A stretch of DNA of 64,000 nt, from contig NZ_CP028105.1 of NCBI RefSeq assembly GCF_003019675.1, positions 2,496,282 through 2,560,281 of the forward strand, written 5' to 3'. A program made the translations under genes and the position numbers. The DNA is from Fusobacterium ulcerans. Lineage in GTDB: Bacteria > Fusobacteriota > Fusobacteriia > Fusobacteriales > Fusobacteriaceae. The notes beneath the pieces were generated by a model. That model had not been told where the DNA came from. It searched no databases and saw nothing but the letters and a program-made list of their open reading frames with translations. Shown in pieces: positions 19,365 through 26,215 of this stretch; positions within the stretch are counted from its first letter, which is position 1, and every line of letters starts with the position of its first letter.

Positions 19365-19988
19365 TTATCTTCCCCAAGTATCAGTGTTCTTGTTCCAAGA
19401 CGAAGCTATTTCTGCTTCTTCTTCAGTAAGGTATTTTTCTTCTCTAGCTAATTCAAGAAGAGCTGAGAAGTTTGATAATGATTCCCATGGAATATTATTA
19501 TCAGCAAAGTTTTTAAATGCTTTATCAAATTCATAAGAGAATATAGAAACAACTTCAACAGAAGCAGCTCCTTCATTTCTTGCAGCTTCTACAGCTTTGA
19601 TAGAACTTCCTCCTGTAGAGATAAGGTCTTCAATAACTATTACTTTTTTACCAGTAAAGTCAGCACCTTCAATTTGTCTTCCAGCACCATGTGCTTTCTT
19701 TTCTCCTCTGATATAACTCATAGGTTTATTCATTTCCCAAGCTATAAATGCAGCCCAAGGGATACCAGCAGTAGCAGTACCAGCTACTACATCGAAATCT
19801 TTTTCAGATAATTTTTTTACAAATTCATCTACAACAACTTTTCTTTCAACAGGATATCCTATCATTTTTCTGTTGTCGCAATAGATTGGACTTTTGATAC
19901 CAGATACAAATGTAAATGGTTCTTTTACATTTAATTTTACCGCTCCTGTTTGTAATAATGATTTAGCTACTTCTTTTGCTCTACTCAT
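19365..19988 (-). CDS. pyrE: Orotate phosphoribosyltransferase
   Basis: A 207-residue type I phosphoribosyltransferase. The PRPP motif is VIVIEDLISTGGSS and the N-terminal region has FVSGIKSPIYCDNR, typical of PyrE. It joins orotate and PRPP to OMP in the cytosol. Last gene of the pyr cluster; its ATG overlaps the pyrC end by eight bases. No terminator follows before the next promoter. Confidence 0.95.
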   Translation of the reverse strand: MSRAKEVAKSLLQTGAVKLNVKEPFTFVSGIKSPIYCDNRKMIGYPVERKVVVDEFVKKLSEKDFDVVAGTATAGIPWAAFIAWEMNKPMSYIRGEKKAHGAGRQIEGADFTGKKVIVIEDLISTGGSSIKAVEAARNEGAASVEVVSIFSYEFDKAFKNFADNNIPWESLSNFSALLELAREEKYLTEEEAEIASSWNKNTDTWGR

Positions 19989-21198
19989 AATATTTTACTT
20001 CCCTCCCGTATAATCCGTTAAATTTACCATTTGAATAAACTACCTGACCTCTCAGTATAGTTGTTAAAACTTTTCCGCCTTTATTGCAATTTTCATATGG
20101 AGTCCATCCAGCTTTTGTTATTACTTTATCATCCTTTACAGGAGAATTATCAGTAATATCTATAATAACAAGATCTCCATCATATCCAGCAGCTATATTA
20201 CCTTTATTTTTTATTTTAAAGATATCAGCTGGTTTATTACACATTACCTCTATAAGTCTTTTTAAAGTTATCTTTCCATCTTTTACTCCATTTAACATCA
20301 TTTCAAGAGAATTTTCTACACTTGGAACTCCAAAAGTAAGTTTTGCAAGTTTCTCTTCAATAAGATGAGGAGCATGATCTGTACCGATAGTATCAAGAGT
20401 ACCATCAGCCAGTGCAGCCCAAAGAGCATCATTGTCAGATTTTTCTTTCAGTTCAGGCTTCATTCTAAGAAGAAGCTGGCTTCTTTCAGTCTTACTTACA
20501 TCATCTGTATTCAGGAAAAGATGGTGAGGAGTAACTTCACCAAATACCTTTGCTCCTCTTGCTTTAGCAGCTTTTAAAAGTTCTATTTCACTTGCTTTAG
20601 ATAAGTGGCAAAGATAAAGTTCCTTATCATATTTCTCGCAAAATTCAATAGCCTTTGCTACCATTTCCTCTTCTGCATGTACAGATATTATTTTTGATTC
20701 TCTGAATATATTTTCAACAGTTTTTTCATCATCTATAAGCATATCTCCAGTAGACATATTAAGAAATATTTTAGTAGATGCTGTTTCATTTATTATATCT
20801 TTGATTTCACTGCTGTTATCTTTTTTACTTCCTCCAAAATGGAATCCATAATCAACATATGCTCTTCCATTCATAAGAGCTTTTTTATCAGCAAGAGCCT
20901 CTTTTGTAACAGTTACTGGAATAGTATTAGGCATATCTATAAATGTAGTAACACCACCTCTGGCACAAGCCATGCTTCCAGTAGTGAAATCTTCTTTTTG
21001 AGTAAGACCAGGATCTCTCATGTGAGTGTGAACATCTACTATACCAGGAAGTACATATTTCTCTTCTGCATCTATTATTTCTTCAGCAGGAGCAAAGATA
21101 TTCTTTTCTATTTTAGTGATAACTCCATTTTCAATCAATATATCAGTGATGATATCTTTTCCATCTTTATCAATGATCTTACAATTTTTGACTAGCAT
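19981..21198 (-). CDS. pyrC: Dihydroorotase
   Basis: A 405-residue type I dihydroorotase of the amidohydrolase fold. Metal ligands appear in GIVDVHTHMRDPGLTQKED (HxH) and the later GTDHAPH. The carboxylated lysine of other members is expected near residue 150 (SSTKIFLN region). It cyclises carbamoyl aspartate to dihydroorotate. Start ATG 21198 overlaps the pyrF stop by seven bases, so translation is likely coupled. Confidence 0.95.
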   Translation of the reverse strand: MLVKNCKIIDKDGKDIITDILIENGVITKIEKNIFAPAEEIIDAEEKYVLPGIVDVHTHMRDPGLTQKEDFTTGSMACARGGVTTFIDMPNTIPVTVTKEALADKKALMNGRAYVDYGFHFGGSKKDNSSEIKDIINETASTKIFLNMSTGDMLIDDEKTVENIFRESKIISVHAEEEMVAKAIEFCEKYDKELYLCHLSKASEIELLKAAKARGAKVFGEVTPHHLFLNTDDVSKTERSQLLLRMKPELKEKSDNDALWAALADGTLDTIGTDHAPHLIEEKLAKLTFGVPSVENSLEMMLNGVKDGKITLKRLIEVMCNKPADIFKIKNKGNIAAGYDGDLVIIDITDNSPVKDDKVITKAGWTPYENCNKGGKVLTTILRGQVVYSNGKFNGLYGREVKYYE

Positions 21199-21917
21199 AG
21201 TCCAGCCTCTTTCATTCCCTCTTCAATTTCAGCAGCTACTAATTTAGCAGCATTTGCTGGGTCTTCGTTTTTAGTTATAGGTCTTCCGATAACTAAGAAG
21301 TCACATCCGTTTATTATTGCATCTTTTGGAGTCATAATTCTTTTCTGATCGTTTGTTGCTGACCATCTAGGTCTAACACCTGGACATACAGTTTTGAAAT
21401 CTTTTCCGCAAGCTTCTTTTATAAGTTTAGCTTCCCAAGGAGAACATACTACCCCATCAAGTCCAGCAGTTTTTCCTAATTTAGCCCAGTTTAATGCTAA
21501 CTCTGCAAGAGATAATTTAGATTGGAAAGTTTCCTCTACATCTTCAGCAGAAAGACTTGTAAGAACAGTAACTCCAATAACTATATTTTCAGGATTTACA
21601 GCTTTTACTTCTTCAACTACTTTTGACATCATTTTTCTTCCACCACTTGCATGTACATTGAACATAAATACATTTTGCTTAGCAGCAAAAACTGATGCCA
21701 TTGCTGTTGTATTTGGAATGTCATGGAATTTAAGATCAAGGAATATTTTTTTACCTTTAGAAGCAAGGTAGTTTATCATTTCACCTTTTGAGTTTAAGAA
21801 AAGTTCAAGTCCAACTTTATAGAAAGTAGCTCCGTCACCAATTTTTTCAACTAAATTTTTAGCAGCTTCCATAGTAGGAAAGTCAAGTGCTATTATCATT
21901 CTGTCTTTTGCGTTCAT
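21192..21917 (-). CDS. pyrF: Orotidine 5'-phosphate decarboxylase
   Basis: A 241-residue TIM-barrel decarboxylase. The catalytic DxKxxD motif is in FLDLKFHDIPNT, with VCPGVRPRW near the phosphate site, typical of the bacterial type. It makes UMP from OMP. The start is taken at ATG 21917 because GGAGG ends six bases before it; an in-frame ATG five codons earlier contains that RBS. 24 nt separate it from pyrD. Confidence 0.95.
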   Translation of the reverse strand: MNAKDRMIIALDFPTMEAAKNLVEKIGDGATFYKVGLELFLNSKGEMINYLASKGKKIFLDLKFHDIPNTTAMASVFAAKQNVFMFNVHASGGRKMMSKVVEEVKAVNPENIVIGVTVLTSLSAEDVEETFQSKLSLAELALNWAKLGKTAGLDGVVCSPWEAKLIKEACGKDFKTVCPGVRPRWSATNDQKRIMTPKDAIINGCDFLVIGRPITKNEDPANAAKLVAAEIEEGMKEAGLC

Positions 21918-21941
21918 ATCTTCCTCCAACATTTATTTTAA

Positions 21942-22859
21942 TTATCTGTGTGCTATACCAACAAGTTCATTTATATTTTCAATATTATTTTCTTCACAGT
22001 ATTTTTGTAATCCTTCAGCTACTTCCACAGGAAGAACAGGATTAAAGAATATACCAGTTCCAAGAGATACCATAGAAGCTCCAGCCATTATAAATTCAAG
22101 AGCATCCTCTGTACTAGAGATTCCACCCATACCAACTATTGGAATATTTACAGCTTTATATACTTGGTACACCATTCTTAAAGCTACTGGTTTAACAGCA
22201 GGTCCTGAGAATCCTCCAAATGTATTTCCTAAAAGAGGTTTTTTAGTTTTAAGATCAATTACCATTCCTAAAAGAGTATTGATAAGAGATACAGCATCTG
22301 CTCCATTCTCTTCTACAACTTTAGCTATATATGCAATATCAGTAACATTAGGAGATAATTTTACTACAAGAGGTTTAGTAGTTACTTTTCTTACTTCTCT
22401 TGTAACTCTTCCTGCAACTTCTGGATTAGCTCCAAAAGCCATTCCTCCATCTTTTACATTTGGACAAGATATATTTAATTCTATTATATCTACTTCTTTT
22501 ATCTGCTCTACTCTTTTAGCTATTTCTATATATTCCTCAACAGTTTTTCCATTGATATTTGCTATTATATTAGTAGTGATGCCAGCTTCTTTCATATCTT
22601 TTAAGATATGAGTTTCAAAATAGTCAATTCCGGGATTTTCAAGTCCTACACAATTCAGCATTCCACCAGGAGTTTCAGCTATTCTTGTTCCATAGTTTCC
22701 ATCTCTAGGCTCCATAGTAAGCCCTTTTACAACTATTCCTCCAAGTACATTTGGATCAAAATAATCTCTATATTCAAGTCCGAATCCAAAACATCCAGAT
22801 GATGTGACAATAGGATTCTTAAAATCGACACCTAAGAATTTAGTTTCCAGTCTATTCAT
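21942..22859 (-). CDS. pyrD: Dihydroorotate dehydrogenase, class 1B catalytic subunit
   Basis: A 305-residue FMN TIM-barrel enzyme. It carries NCVGLENPGID, the catalytic cysteine region LNISCPNVKDGG (class 1 uses Cys), and GMGGISSTEDALEFIMAGA near the FMN phosphate. Together with PyrK just upstream it forms the NAD-linked class 1B enzyme used by anaerobes, instead of a quinone-linked class 2 enzyme. RBS GGAGG precedes ATG 22859. Confidence 0.95.
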   Translation of the reverse strand: MNRLETKFLGVDFKNPIVTSSGCFGFGLEYRDYFDPNVLGGIVVKGLTMEPRDGNYGTRIAETPGGMLNCVGLENPGIDYFETHILKDMKEAGITTNIIANINGKTVEEYIEIAKRVEQIKEVDIIELNISCPNVKDGGMAFGANPEVAGRVTREVRKVTTKPLVVKLSPNVTDIAYIAKVVEENGADAVSLINTLLGMVIDLKTKKPLLGNTFGGFSGPAVKPVALRMVYQVYKAVNIPIVGMGGISSTEDALEFIMAGASMVSLGTGIFFNPVLPVEVAEGLQKYCEENNIENINELVGIAHR

Positions 22860-22880: not shown

Positions 22881-23684
22881 TTAATTACCACAACAAGTTT
22901 CTGTTCTTTCAGCAGGTTCAAGGTCAACAATAGTCTCAGATTTAAAAACAGGACCATCATGACATACTTTTTTCATTCCTTCTTTAGTTTTGATAGAGCA
23001 TCCTACACAGGCTTTTACTCCACAAGCCATTCTTTCTTCCAGTGATATTTCACATTCTGTATTGTATTTTGATGAAGTTTTTGCTACTGCTTCCATCATT
23101 TTATGAGGTCCGCAAGTGAAAACCATATCAAATTTTTTACTGTTCATAAGCTCTTCCATTTTAACTATAACAGTTCCCTTAGTTCCAGCAGAACCATCAT
23201 CAGTAGTTATATGAAGATCAGCACCATCAAAGTTAAAGTTAGAAAGGATTTCAACAGCATCAGCATTTCTTCCTCCAGCTATGAAAGTAACCTCATTGTT
23301 TTTCTTTAATACTTCTACAAGAAGCTTCATAGGAGCCATTCCCATTCCACCACCAACTACTAGAAGTTTTTTACCTGTCATATCAGTAGAAAATCCATGT
23401 CCAAGAGGTCCTTGGATGTTTATACTTTCTCCAGCTTTCATCTCAGCAAATTCTTTTGTTCCTCCACCTTTTACCTCATAGTAAAATTCAAGCTCCATTT
23501 TATTTTTATCTACATAGTGAAGACTGATTGGTCTTCTTAAGATGTGAAGCTTGTTCTTGCATTGAATCATAAAGAACTGCCCAGCTTTTGATACTGGAAT
23601 GCTTTTTTCAGCTTTTAATCTCATAAGATAATTTTGTCCTGCAATGTGTTTATTTTCTAAAATTAGACAATCTTCTAAAAACAT
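22881..23684 (-). CDS. pyrK: Dihydroorotate dehydrogenase electron transfer subunit
   Basis: A 267-residue FAD/2Fe-2S protein of the ferredoxin reductase fold. FAD binding: LHILRRPISLHYVD; NAD side: VVGGGMGMAPMKLL; cluster cysteines in CGVKACVGCSIKT and VCHDGPVF. It passes electrons from PyrD to NAD+. The C-terminal tail ends in CCGN, an extra Cys pair of unknown meaning. 21 nt separate it from pyrD. Confidence 0.94.
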   Translation of the reverse strand: MFLEDCLILENKHIAGQNYLMRLKAEKSIPVSKAGQFFMIQCKNKLHILRRPISLHYVDKNKMELEFYYEVKGGGTKEFAEMKAGESINIQGPLGHGFSTDMTGKKLLVVGGGMGMAPMKLLVEVLKKNNEVTFIAGGRNADAVEILSNFNFDGADLHITTDDGSAGTKGTVIVKMEELMNSKKFDMVFTCGPHKMMEAVAKTSSKYNTECEISLEERMACGVKACVGCSIKTKEGMKKVCHDGPVFKSETIVDLEPAERTETCCGN

Positions 23685-23713: not shown

Positions 23714-24778
23714 TTATTTTATTTCCTTACCGCAATAGTAGCAGAATTTCCCATAATCCTTTACTACTACTTTATTTGGTGTTTCTTCAAAATGAGTTAC
23801 ACATTTATGATTAGAACATACAATTTTATCATTTGCTACTACATTTTTTTCTTCTTTAACAGGGGCAGTGGATTTTTTTACTCCCAGTGCAAGAGCAAAC
23901 ATAGCTTCTCTCACAGGTACTCCATTGGCAGCCTGTTTAAAATATAGAGCATGTTTTGTATCATCTAAATCTACGCTTATTTCATCAACCCTAGGAAGCG
24001 GATGCATAACAATCATATGATCCTGACATTTTCCAACTATTGTTTCTTTTGATATTTTATATACTCCGCTGACTTTGTTAAATTCCTCAATATCCTCAAA
24101 TCTTTCTTTTTGGATTCTTGTCATGTAAAGAACATCTATTTCAGAAAGAATAGGCTCATATTCAGAGCAGATACAATATTTCATTCCTTTTTCATCAAGC
24201 TCTTTTGTGATATATTCAGGTATCTGGATAGAATCTGGAGCTACAAAGTAGAACTCAGCATCAAACATTTCAAGTGCTTTAGTAAGAGAATGAACTGTTC
24301 TTCCATATTTAAGATCCCCAACAAAAGCTATTTTGACACCTTCTATTTTTTCCAGTTCTTTTTTTATTGTGAAAAGGTCTAAAAGTGTCTGGCTTGGATG
24401 TTCATTAGAACCATCTCCAGCATTGATTACAGGATTTTTTGAAACTTCAGAGGCGAATTTAGGTCCACCTTCTATATTATGTCTCATAACAATGATATCA
24501 GAATAAGCTTCTACCATTTTTACTGTATCTCTTAGAGATTCTCCTTTTTTAACAGAAGTAGCATCTGGAGAATCAAAACCTAGAACTTTTCCTCCAATTC
24601 TATATGCAGCAGAAGTGAAAGATAATCTTGTTCTAGTAGATGGTTCAAAGAAAAGGCTTCCCACTATTTTCTCATCTATTAATTTAGGCTCTGGTTTTTC
24701 AGATAATTCAAGAGCTAAATTCAAAACTTCTAAGACTTCCTCTTTTGTCAAATCTTTTATTGATATAAAATCTTTCAT
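23714..24778 (-). CDS. pyrB: Aspartate carbamoyltransferase fused to a PyrI-type zinc domain
   Basis: A 354-residue fusion. Residues 1-305 are the catalytic chain, with the carbamoyl phosphate motif FEPSTRTRLSF, NAGDGSNEHPSQTLLDL and HPLPRVDEI. After a linker (APVKEEKN) the last 37 residues form a four-cysteine zinc site, C321/C326 (CSNHKC) and C346/C349 (CYYC), like the zinc domain of E. coli PyrI. The nucleotide-binding allosteric domain of PyrI is missing, so ATP/CTP control is not expected. Start ATG 24778 follows GGAGGG; an in-frame ATG at 24826 lies just after the attenuator. First structural gene of the pyr cluster. Confidence 0.92.
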   Translation of the reverse strand: MKDFISIKDLTKEEVLEVLNLALELSEKPEPKLIDEKIVGSLFFEPSTRTRLSFTSAAYRIGGKVLGFDSPDATSVKKGESLRDTVKMVEAYSDIIVMRHNIEGGPKFASEVSKNPVINAGDGSNEHPSQTLLDLFTIKKELEKIEGVKIAFVGDLKYGRTVHSLTKALEMFDAEFYFVAPDSIQIPEYITKELDEKGMKYCICSEYEPILSEIDVLYMTRIQKERFEDIEEFNKVSGVYKISKETIVGKCQDHMIVMHPLPRVDEISVDLDDTKHALYFKQAANGVPVREAMFALALGVKKSTAPVKEEKNVVANDKIVCSNHKCVTHFEETPNKVVVKDYGKFCYYCGKEIK

Positions 24779-24803: not shown

Positions 24804-24850
24804 ATAAAAAAGGGAATGAAAATCACAAAATGATGTGACTTCCATTCCCT
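24804..24850 (-). terminator. pyr operon attenuator (leader terminator)
   Basis: Arms 24834-24850 and 24811-24827 form a 17-bp stem (two G-T pairs) with a six-nt loop, then T6. It sits between the pyr promoter and pyrB, so it can only act as an attenuator. The stop codon of the leader ORF lies in its 3' arm. Confidence 0.88.
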
Positions 24851-24951
24851 ATAATAAAAATGTTTTTTAAAATATTTAAAAATAGAAAAATAAAATAAAA
24901 GAATCCTAAGATAAAAACTGATATATTCAATTTATCATCAAATATCTTCAT
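24823..24951 (-). CDS. Leader peptide of the pyr operon (pyrL-like, 42 codons)
   Basis: A 42-codon ORF starting MKIFDDKLNISVFILG and ending GNGSHIIL. AAGGAGGC lies ten bases before the ATG. The middle is Phe/Ile/Leu-rich only because the RNA there (about 24851-24903) is a long U-rich tract. The TGA stop (24823-24825) falls inside the 3' arm of the attenuator. This is the architecture of E. coli pyrBI: at low UTP, RNA polymerase stalls in the U tract, the ribosome catches up and covers the hairpin, and transcription continues into pyrB. The peptide itself is probably without function. I found it by reading; sequence identity with E. coli pyrL is not claimed. Confidence 0.75.
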   Translation of the reverse strand: MKIFDDKLNISVFILGFFYFIFLFLNILKNIFIIGNGSHIIL

Positions 24952-24986
24952 ATATCCATAGCCTCCTTATATTTTTCTATATCTTG

Positions 24987-25031: not shown

Positions 25032-26006
25032 TTATTTTTTTAAAATTTCTATCAATTCTGATTTGTATCTATCAAGATTATTAACGAGGTCTTTTACTTG
25101 TTCATCACTAAGCTTTACAGTCTTTTCTGTAGTTGGAACAAACTTAAATTCTTCAGTAAGAGGAGTTTCAATAACTGGGAACATATAGTTCTTTTTAGGA
25201 ACCAGACTTTGAAATTCTTCACTAAGAATATATTCCATAAATTTTTTAGCTCCCTCTTTTGTTTCTTTTTTATTTACAAGAGATGCACCTTCTAAATACA
25301 TAAAAGTTCCATCTTCTAAAAGGAAGCTGCTGAATCTGCTTTGTTCTTCATCTTGTGAAAAGAAAAGATTGCTTGTAGCATATCCAACCATCATAGGAGC
25401 TTCACCAGCTGTAAATTTAGCAAATGCTTCACTCCAACCGGGTTCAGCTGTATATATGGCAGGTTTTAAAGCAGTCCAGAAATCTTTCCAGTCTTTTCCA
25501 TAGAGAGCTATACTCCATAGAAGAGCTTCTTCCCCAGTAGATGAAGTAGCAGGATTTTCAACTAAAAGCTGTTTTTCCAGTTTTCCAAGTTCTGTAAGAT
25601 TTTTTGGAGGAACAGGGATTTTTTTTGTATCATAGTTGATAGCAAGAAGTCCATAGTCAAAAGGAGTTACATATCCTTCTTTATCCATTATAAAGTCATT
25701 ACTCTTTATATTAGAAGTATTTTTAGGGATATAAGGAGTGATAAGATTTTCCTTTTTTGCTATTTCAGTGCTTAAAGAAGTCAGTCCAATAACAACGTCT
25801 GCCTTAGGATTTTTTTCTTCAAGTTTAAGTCTTGATACAAGTCCATCAATAGATATGAATTTAATATCCACTCCAGTTTTTTCTTTAAATATTGGAGCAA
25901 AAGTTTTTCCTATCCATTTTGTAGAGCTGGGTCCGTAAACTACTATTTCTTCTGAAAAAGAAGAGACAGACAATAATAAAAATAATGATAAAACAAATTT
26001 TTTCAT
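25032..26006 (-). CDS. Thiamine ABC transporter substrate-binding protein (TbpA/ThiB-like)
   Basis: A 324-residue periplasmic binding protein. The signal peptide is MKKFVLSLFLLLSVSSFS with cleavage near residue 18. The body has the extracellular solute-binding fold with IVVYGPSSTKW, NPATSSTGEEALLW and PGWSEAFAKF, as in the thiamine-binding TbpA. The TPP riboswitch directly upstream supports thiamine or a precursor as ligand. No permease (ThiP) or ATPase (ThiQ) gene is adjacent; partners must be elsewhere. RBS AGGAGG precedes ATG 26006. Confidence 0.88.
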   Translation of the reverse strand: MKKFVLSLFLLLSVSSFSEEIVVYGPSSTKWIGKTFAPIFKEKTGVDIKFISIDGLVSRLKLEEKNPKADVVIGLTSLSTEIAKKENLITPYIPKNTSNIKSNDFIMDKEGYVTPFDYGLLAINYDTKKIPVPPKNLTELGKLEKQLLVENPATSSTGEEALLWSIALYGKDWKDFWTALKPAIYTAEPGWSEAFAKFTAGEAPMMVGYATSNLFFSQDEEQSRFSSFLLEDGTFMYLEGASLVNKKETKEGAKKFMEYILSEEFQSLVPKKNYMFPVIETPLTEEFKFVPTTEKTVKLSDEQVKDLVNNLDRYKSELIEILKK

Positions 26007-26033: not shown

Positions 26034-26071
26034 ATAAAAAAAGCTGCCTGAGAAAGATAACAAGACAACTT
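26034..26071 (-). terminator. Terminator of the TPP riboswitch expression platform
   Basis: Arms 26061-26071 and 26041-26050 pair over about nine positions with G-T pairs, followed on the reverse strand by T7. It lies between the aptamer and the start codon, which fits an OFF switch at high TPP. Confidence 0.7.
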
Positions 26072-26077
26072 CAAAAC

Positions 26078-26155
26078 ATTTCCTACGCTGGCATTATCCA
26101 AATCAGGTTTGACGGTCGAAATAAAATTTCCTCTCAGCTTTTCAGCTCCCGTATG
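26078..26155 (-). ncRNA. TPP riboswitch (THI element)
   Basis: The reverse strand reads ACGGGAGCTGAAAAGCTGAG, then ACCTGATTTGGATAATGCC and AGCGTAGGAAA: the conserved CTGAGA and CCTGAT..GGATAATGCCAGCGTAGG segments of the thiamine pyrophosphate aptamer. A terminator lies 7-40 nt downstream, ahead of the thiamine-binding protein gene. Confidence 0.96.
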
Positions 26156-26215
26156 ATAATATTTAATTATACAAACTAACTATACACTTGAATATAAGGT
26201 TTGTCAAATAACTGC

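Follow-up and report, generated by a model that had tools for sequence, protein, structure and literature searches.

A probable translation-dependent attenuator before the pyrB operon of Fusobacterium ulcerans and similar leaders before pyrB and carA in Fusobacteriota

The systems closest to the leader described here are the attenuators of E. coli pyrBI and rph-pyrE and the PyrR-controlled pyr leaders of Bacillus. In E. coli rph-pyrE, a translated frame, that of the full rph gene, ends beside a terminator and UTP-dependent coupling decides on read-through. Enterobacterial pyrBI carries reiterative addition of U as an added layer of control that is not essential to the attenuator. The pyr operons of Bacillus are likewise controlled by transcription attenuation, which needs both the PyrR protein and its RNA site (RF00515). 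In E. coli pyrBI, tight coupling across the leader keeps the terminator from forming (PMC5021804).

We analysed a 64,000-nucleotide stretch of the F. ulcerans genome (NZ_CP028105.1, positions 2,496,282 to 2,560,281; the window), in which a first-pass annotation had placed a pyrBI-style attenuator before a pyr cluster without giving its strand. All leader parts lie on the minus strand. The pyr promoter (25018-24990), read from the sequence, combines a -35 element TTGAAT, a 17-nt spacer and an extended -10 element TGaTATTAT, and is followed by a Shine-Dalgarno (SD) sequence AAGGAGG (24968-24962) and a leader ORF of 42 codons (24951-24823, ATG at 24951) that encodes MKIFDDKLNISVFILGFFYFIFLFLNILKNIFIIGNGSHIIL. 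The downstream part of the leader is a U-rich tract (approximately 24910-24851, 60% T), which we propose as a zone of UTP-dependent RNA polymerase pausing; among 12,099 coding windows of 60 nt from this genome, only 0.04% reach this T content. The tract runs into an intrinsic terminator (24850-24806) made up of a hairpin (24850-24811) and a T run to 24806. The hairpin consists of 17 contiguous pairs (6 G-C, 2 G-U) with a 6-nt loop and is followed by T6, its predicted folding energy is -25.5 kcal/mol (z -8.8) and it represents the only terminator-like site between 24600 and 25150, where 0.0 are expected. The leader stop codon TGA (24825-24823) falls within the 3' arm, and a second SD sequence, GGGAGGG (24789-24783), precedes pyrB. 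The promoter, the leader SD sequence, the ORF with its stop codon, the U-rich tract and the hairpin had been named in the first-pass annotation and all were confirmed.

The operon downstream has the order pyrB-pyrK-pyrD-pyrF-pyrC-pyrE, all on the minus strand and assigned with NCBIfam models: aspartate carbamoyltransferase (pyrB, 23714-24778), dihydroorotate dehydrogenase electron transfer subunit (pyrK, 22881-23684; 217.4 bits, slightly below the cut-off of 219), dihydroorotate dehydrogenase (pyrD, 21942-22859), orotidine-5'-phosphate decarboxylase (pyrF, 21192-21932), dihydroorotase (pyrC, 19981-21198) and orotate phosphoribosyltransferase (pyrE, 19365-19988). The PyrB protein of the window carries a C-terminal extension that resembles the metal-binding domain of PyrI (PF02748, 18.3 bits, below the cut-off of 23.4) without a full regulatory chain. 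In one Leptotrichia locus (L034), pyrB is followed by a 163-aa ORF that resembles a separate PyrI. On the upstream side, the only Rfam match above cut-off near the leader is a TPP riboswitch (26063-26162, minus strand) that precedes a thiB-like ABC transporter gene (25032-26006) near the pyr promoter.

The order of parts is that of E. coli pyrBI with its leader PyrL: promoter, SD sequence, ORF, T-containing tract, intrinsic hairpin and pyrB. The ORFs are of similar length (44 codons in PyrL, 42 here), as are the distances from start codon to hairpin (88 nt in pyrL, 101 nt here). The two leaders differ in that the E. coli stop codon lies 27 nt beyond the hairpin, whereas those of Fusobacteriota mostly fall within it, that the last 60 nt contain 28% T in pyrL and 60% here, and that the hairpin is AT-rich here, unlike that of pyrBI. 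By eye, no UUU of the sort used for reiterative transcription in enterobacterial pyrBI is seen at the predicted transcription start. The device is also found before carA in Fusobacteriota, whereas no terminator-like site was detected upstream of E. coli carA. In contrast to rph-pyrE, the frame is a dedicated leader ORF, and both the PyrR protein and the RNA site needed in Bacillus are absent. By this analogy the leader probably works like pyrBI; we make no claim of common descent with enterobacterial pyrL.

A single ORF such as that of the window is open to the hairpin by chance with P of about 0.05 (dinucleotide shuffling), and since some 5% of shuffles do so, the window by itself is weak evidence. 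In leaders from across the Fusobacteriota, the leader start of each locus was picked from SD strength and position alone, blind to the stop. Among the 98 loci with a hairpin and an SD-chosen start, 91 ORFs run without a stop to the hairpin region, compared to 4.9 expected from dinucleotide shuffles. With one locus drawn per genus, about 15.8 of 18 reach the hairpin (1.0 expected), and 90 loci pass a bounded stop window (3.3 expected from mononucleotide shuffles). At the 90 loci that pass the stop-position filter, frames 0, +1 and +2 are open to the hairpin in 82, 0 and 3 cases; the filter favours frame 0, and the unfiltered count of 91 agrees with it. Chance is thus excluded by the comparative data, ORF reach and frames, rather than by the window alone. 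Stop codons lie between -7 and +61 nt relative to the start of the hairpin 5' arm (median +19.5), so that a terminating ribosome would cover a hairpin arm in nearly all leaders. Substitution rates in close pairs (0.088, 0.076 and 0.123 by codon position) are only mildly frame-like, and an indel-frame test on global alignments is uninformative because the U/A-rich leaders align too poorly between species.

The encoded peptides are not conserved. None of 3,364 cross-genus peptide pairs is similar (0 of 1,675 for the same gene, 0 of 1,689 for different genes), suggesting at the sequence level that the peptide is not the functional element. The leaders start out A-rich and become U-rich as they approach the hairpin; across most of the last 80 nt, T accounts for 51-63%. 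The terminator hairpins of the leaders folded have an average z of -6.0, and their stems, including homologues of the window hairpin in other genera, stay paired while the sequence changes between genera. The first-pass annotation had named conservation of the ORF and hairpin across Fusobacteriota, rather than of the peptide, as a check of its reading, and this is the pattern observed.

PyrB is present in 92 of 98 Fusobacteriota genomes, and the upstream region of most Fusobacteriaceae pyrB genes shows the succession of promoter, SD sequence, short ORF, U-rich tract, hairpin, T run, SD sequence and pyrB. The same layout precedes both carA copies of the F. ulcerans genome (C1:172314-173360 and 160306-161346, minus strand, 12 kb apart), each of which has its own leader ORF, U-rich tract and terminator, as well as most carA genes examined across the phylum. 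Several genera, such as genus 14 and most of genus 25, have pyrB behind carB and a single leader, located before carA. The pyrBI-style reading of the first-pass annotation thus gains support from conservation across the phylum but was too narrow, as carAB has the same device. By automatic criteria, 53 of 86 genomes, belonging to 16 genera, have at least one leader, and one of these genera (G097) is from a different family of the class. These counts are minimum values, given that the survey covered a part of the carA genes and that one leader, with a weak SD sequence, was recognized by eye (L072). Many leaders escaped a terminator search that required perfect stems and at least 3 G-C pairs, and folding-based detection or laxer rules were used instead. 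Hairpins located 5-6 nt past an upstream stop codon in genus 12, an arrangement similar to rph-pyrE, were not counted; at least one of these loci (L017) has a promoter-like site beyond the hairpin.

Across 464 kb of the F. ulcerans genome (366 genes), the layout is found only before pyrB and the two carA copies. The region upstream of pyrG (C1:1950431-1952005) contains a terminator-like hairpin with a T run, yet no SD-preceded ORF, and possibly reflects a different, CTP-related control. The layout is absent by eye from seven xanthine/uracil permease homologues. No leader was detected before pyrB in Leptotrichia (13 species, genus 21) and in one further genus; the Leptotrichia pyrB loci (L059, L061, L063, L066-L068, L071, L073, L074, L076-L078 and L080) have neither leader ORF nor PyrR. 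Two related genomes share a near-identical leader (90% peptide identity), which precedes pyrB in G089 (locus L055) and carA in G090 (locus L180); the pattern resembles a gain or loss of carAB downstream of a leader that stayed in place. Purine riboswitches lie close to carA on the opposite strand in genera 8 and 13 (L139:849-946 and L141:3217-3313).

The F. ulcerans genome contains neither PyrR RNA nor a protein of PyrR grade (28.5 bits against a cut-off of 138). PyrR proteins above cut-off are confined to a single Fusobacteriaceae genus (g4, genomes G016-G018), in which the PyrR gene and PyrR RNA immediately precede a divergent pyrB (35-38% identical; loci L091, L093 and L094). The three RNA matches score 62.3, 56.2 and 51.5 bits (gathering score 54), indicating that the search is able to see PyrR RNA in Fusobacteriota; no other leader tested gave a match. 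All three loci lack a leader ORF. With PyrR protein and RNA found only in this leaderless genus, the two systems look mutually exclusive, and the sequences point to an apparent replacement of the leader system by PyrR in genus g4. The earlier statement that no PyrR-type anti-antiterminator is visible at the leader holds: PyrR RNA and PyrR-grade protein are missing, and the hairpin is not preceded by any antiterminator or riboswitch-like structure.

Taken together, the anatomy of the leader, its conservation, frame specificity, unconserved peptide and the absence of PyrR and of other structure make it probable that the leader is a translation-dependent transcription attenuator of the E. coli pyrBI kind that senses UTP. 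We infer transcription and translation of the leader, coupling of the two processes and UTP as the signal. Transcription would begin some 7 nt after the -10 box, and a ribosome would then enter the leader ORF. If UTP is plentiful, RNA polymerase would leave the ribosome behind as it crosses the U-rich tract, the hairpin would fold and transcription would terminate before pyrB. When UTP is low, the polymerase would pause repeatedly in the U-rich tract and the ribosome would narrow the gap until it arrives at its stop codon, within or next to the hairpin, where it would cover one arm, block the terminator and allow the operon to be transcribed. The encoded peptide would be irrelevant, and carAB would be under the same device.

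An unlikely variant is that the leader is translation-dependent but reports translation rate, e.g. charging of Phe-, Ile- or Leu-tRNA or general translational capacity, instead of UTP. Phe makes up 18% of leader peptides compared to 4.5% in genes, and the feature that is conserved is ORF reach. The T bias is however also found in synonymous choices for Ile (.57 in leaders,.37 in genes), Val (.67 and.38) and Ser, the leaders share neither a conserved run of a single codon nor peptide similarity, and the targets found in the stretches scanned are pyrimidine genes. An antiterminator of the trp or his type was not found: no pairing partner for the terminator 5' arm was detected when this arm was present and the 3' arm absent (z -0.8). 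Considerably less probable is a Rho-based attenuator in which leader translation would shield the pyrimidine-rich tract from Rho rather than prevent the hairpin. Rho is encoded, the genome is purine-biased but the tract rich in pyrimidines, and B. subtilis Rho prefers pyrimidine-rich RNA (PMC13323073); against this, the leaders examined have a strong intrinsic hairpin followed by a T run and the tract, though U-rich, is poor in C, excess C being the first Rho feature reported. The notion of a plain terminator between the upstream gene and pyrB with a fortuitous ORF draws on the lack of an obvious terminator between the thiB-like gene and the pyr promoter and on the chance probability of the single ORF, and is very hard to reconcile with ORFs that reach the hairpin before both pyrB and carA, the specificity of the layout among the genes scanned and a promoter-like site at fixed distance: in 66 of 67 non-redundant leaders, its -10 element ends 29-46 nt upstream of the leader start. 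Control by a protein or ligand through an unrecognized PyrR-like or riboswitch aptamer, to which the outer stem sequence GGAAT/ATTCC, similar in many genera, might point, is just as improbable, as neither the window leader nor any other leader tested has an Rfam match of this kind outside genus g4, no significant structure precedes the hairpin in the leaders examined and the stem sequences differ in other genera.

In a UTP-sensing attenuator of the pyrBI kind, the ribosome has to catch up with RNA polymerase. At phylum level, however, Fusobacteria are placed among the bacteria with runaway, i.e. uncoupled, transcription (PMC13323073). Such a classification would weaken a coupling device unless pausing in the U-rich tract restores coupling. 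The genes of F. ulcerans are purine-biased (58% compared to 51% in E. coli) and its genome encodes both Rho and NusG. Taken as a gauge of coupling, the distance from stop codon to terminator is below 10 nt at 8 of 35 sites in this genome and 2 of 13 in E. coli. Plausibly, ribosome and polymerase are coupled only conditionally, through pausing in the U-rich tract at times of UTP shortage. A more far-reaching proposal, which we put forward tentatively and hold to be somewhat less likely true than false, is that conditional coupling is itself the regulated step in bacteria whose polymerase normally outruns ribosomes, with an exceptionally long and dense U tract that halts the polymerase solely under UTP shortage, and that pyrB and carAB form a phylum-wide regulon that takes the place of PyrR.

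We found no description of a fusobacterial attenuator of the pyrBI kind in the open-access literature; subscription literature was outside the search and priority is uncertain. The class of mechanism is already known, while its occurrence across the phylum and its use for carAB appear to be new. Overall, the comparison between genomes suggests that the Fusobacteriota have, across the phylum, an old alternative to PyrR, with the principle known from pyrBI extended to carAB.
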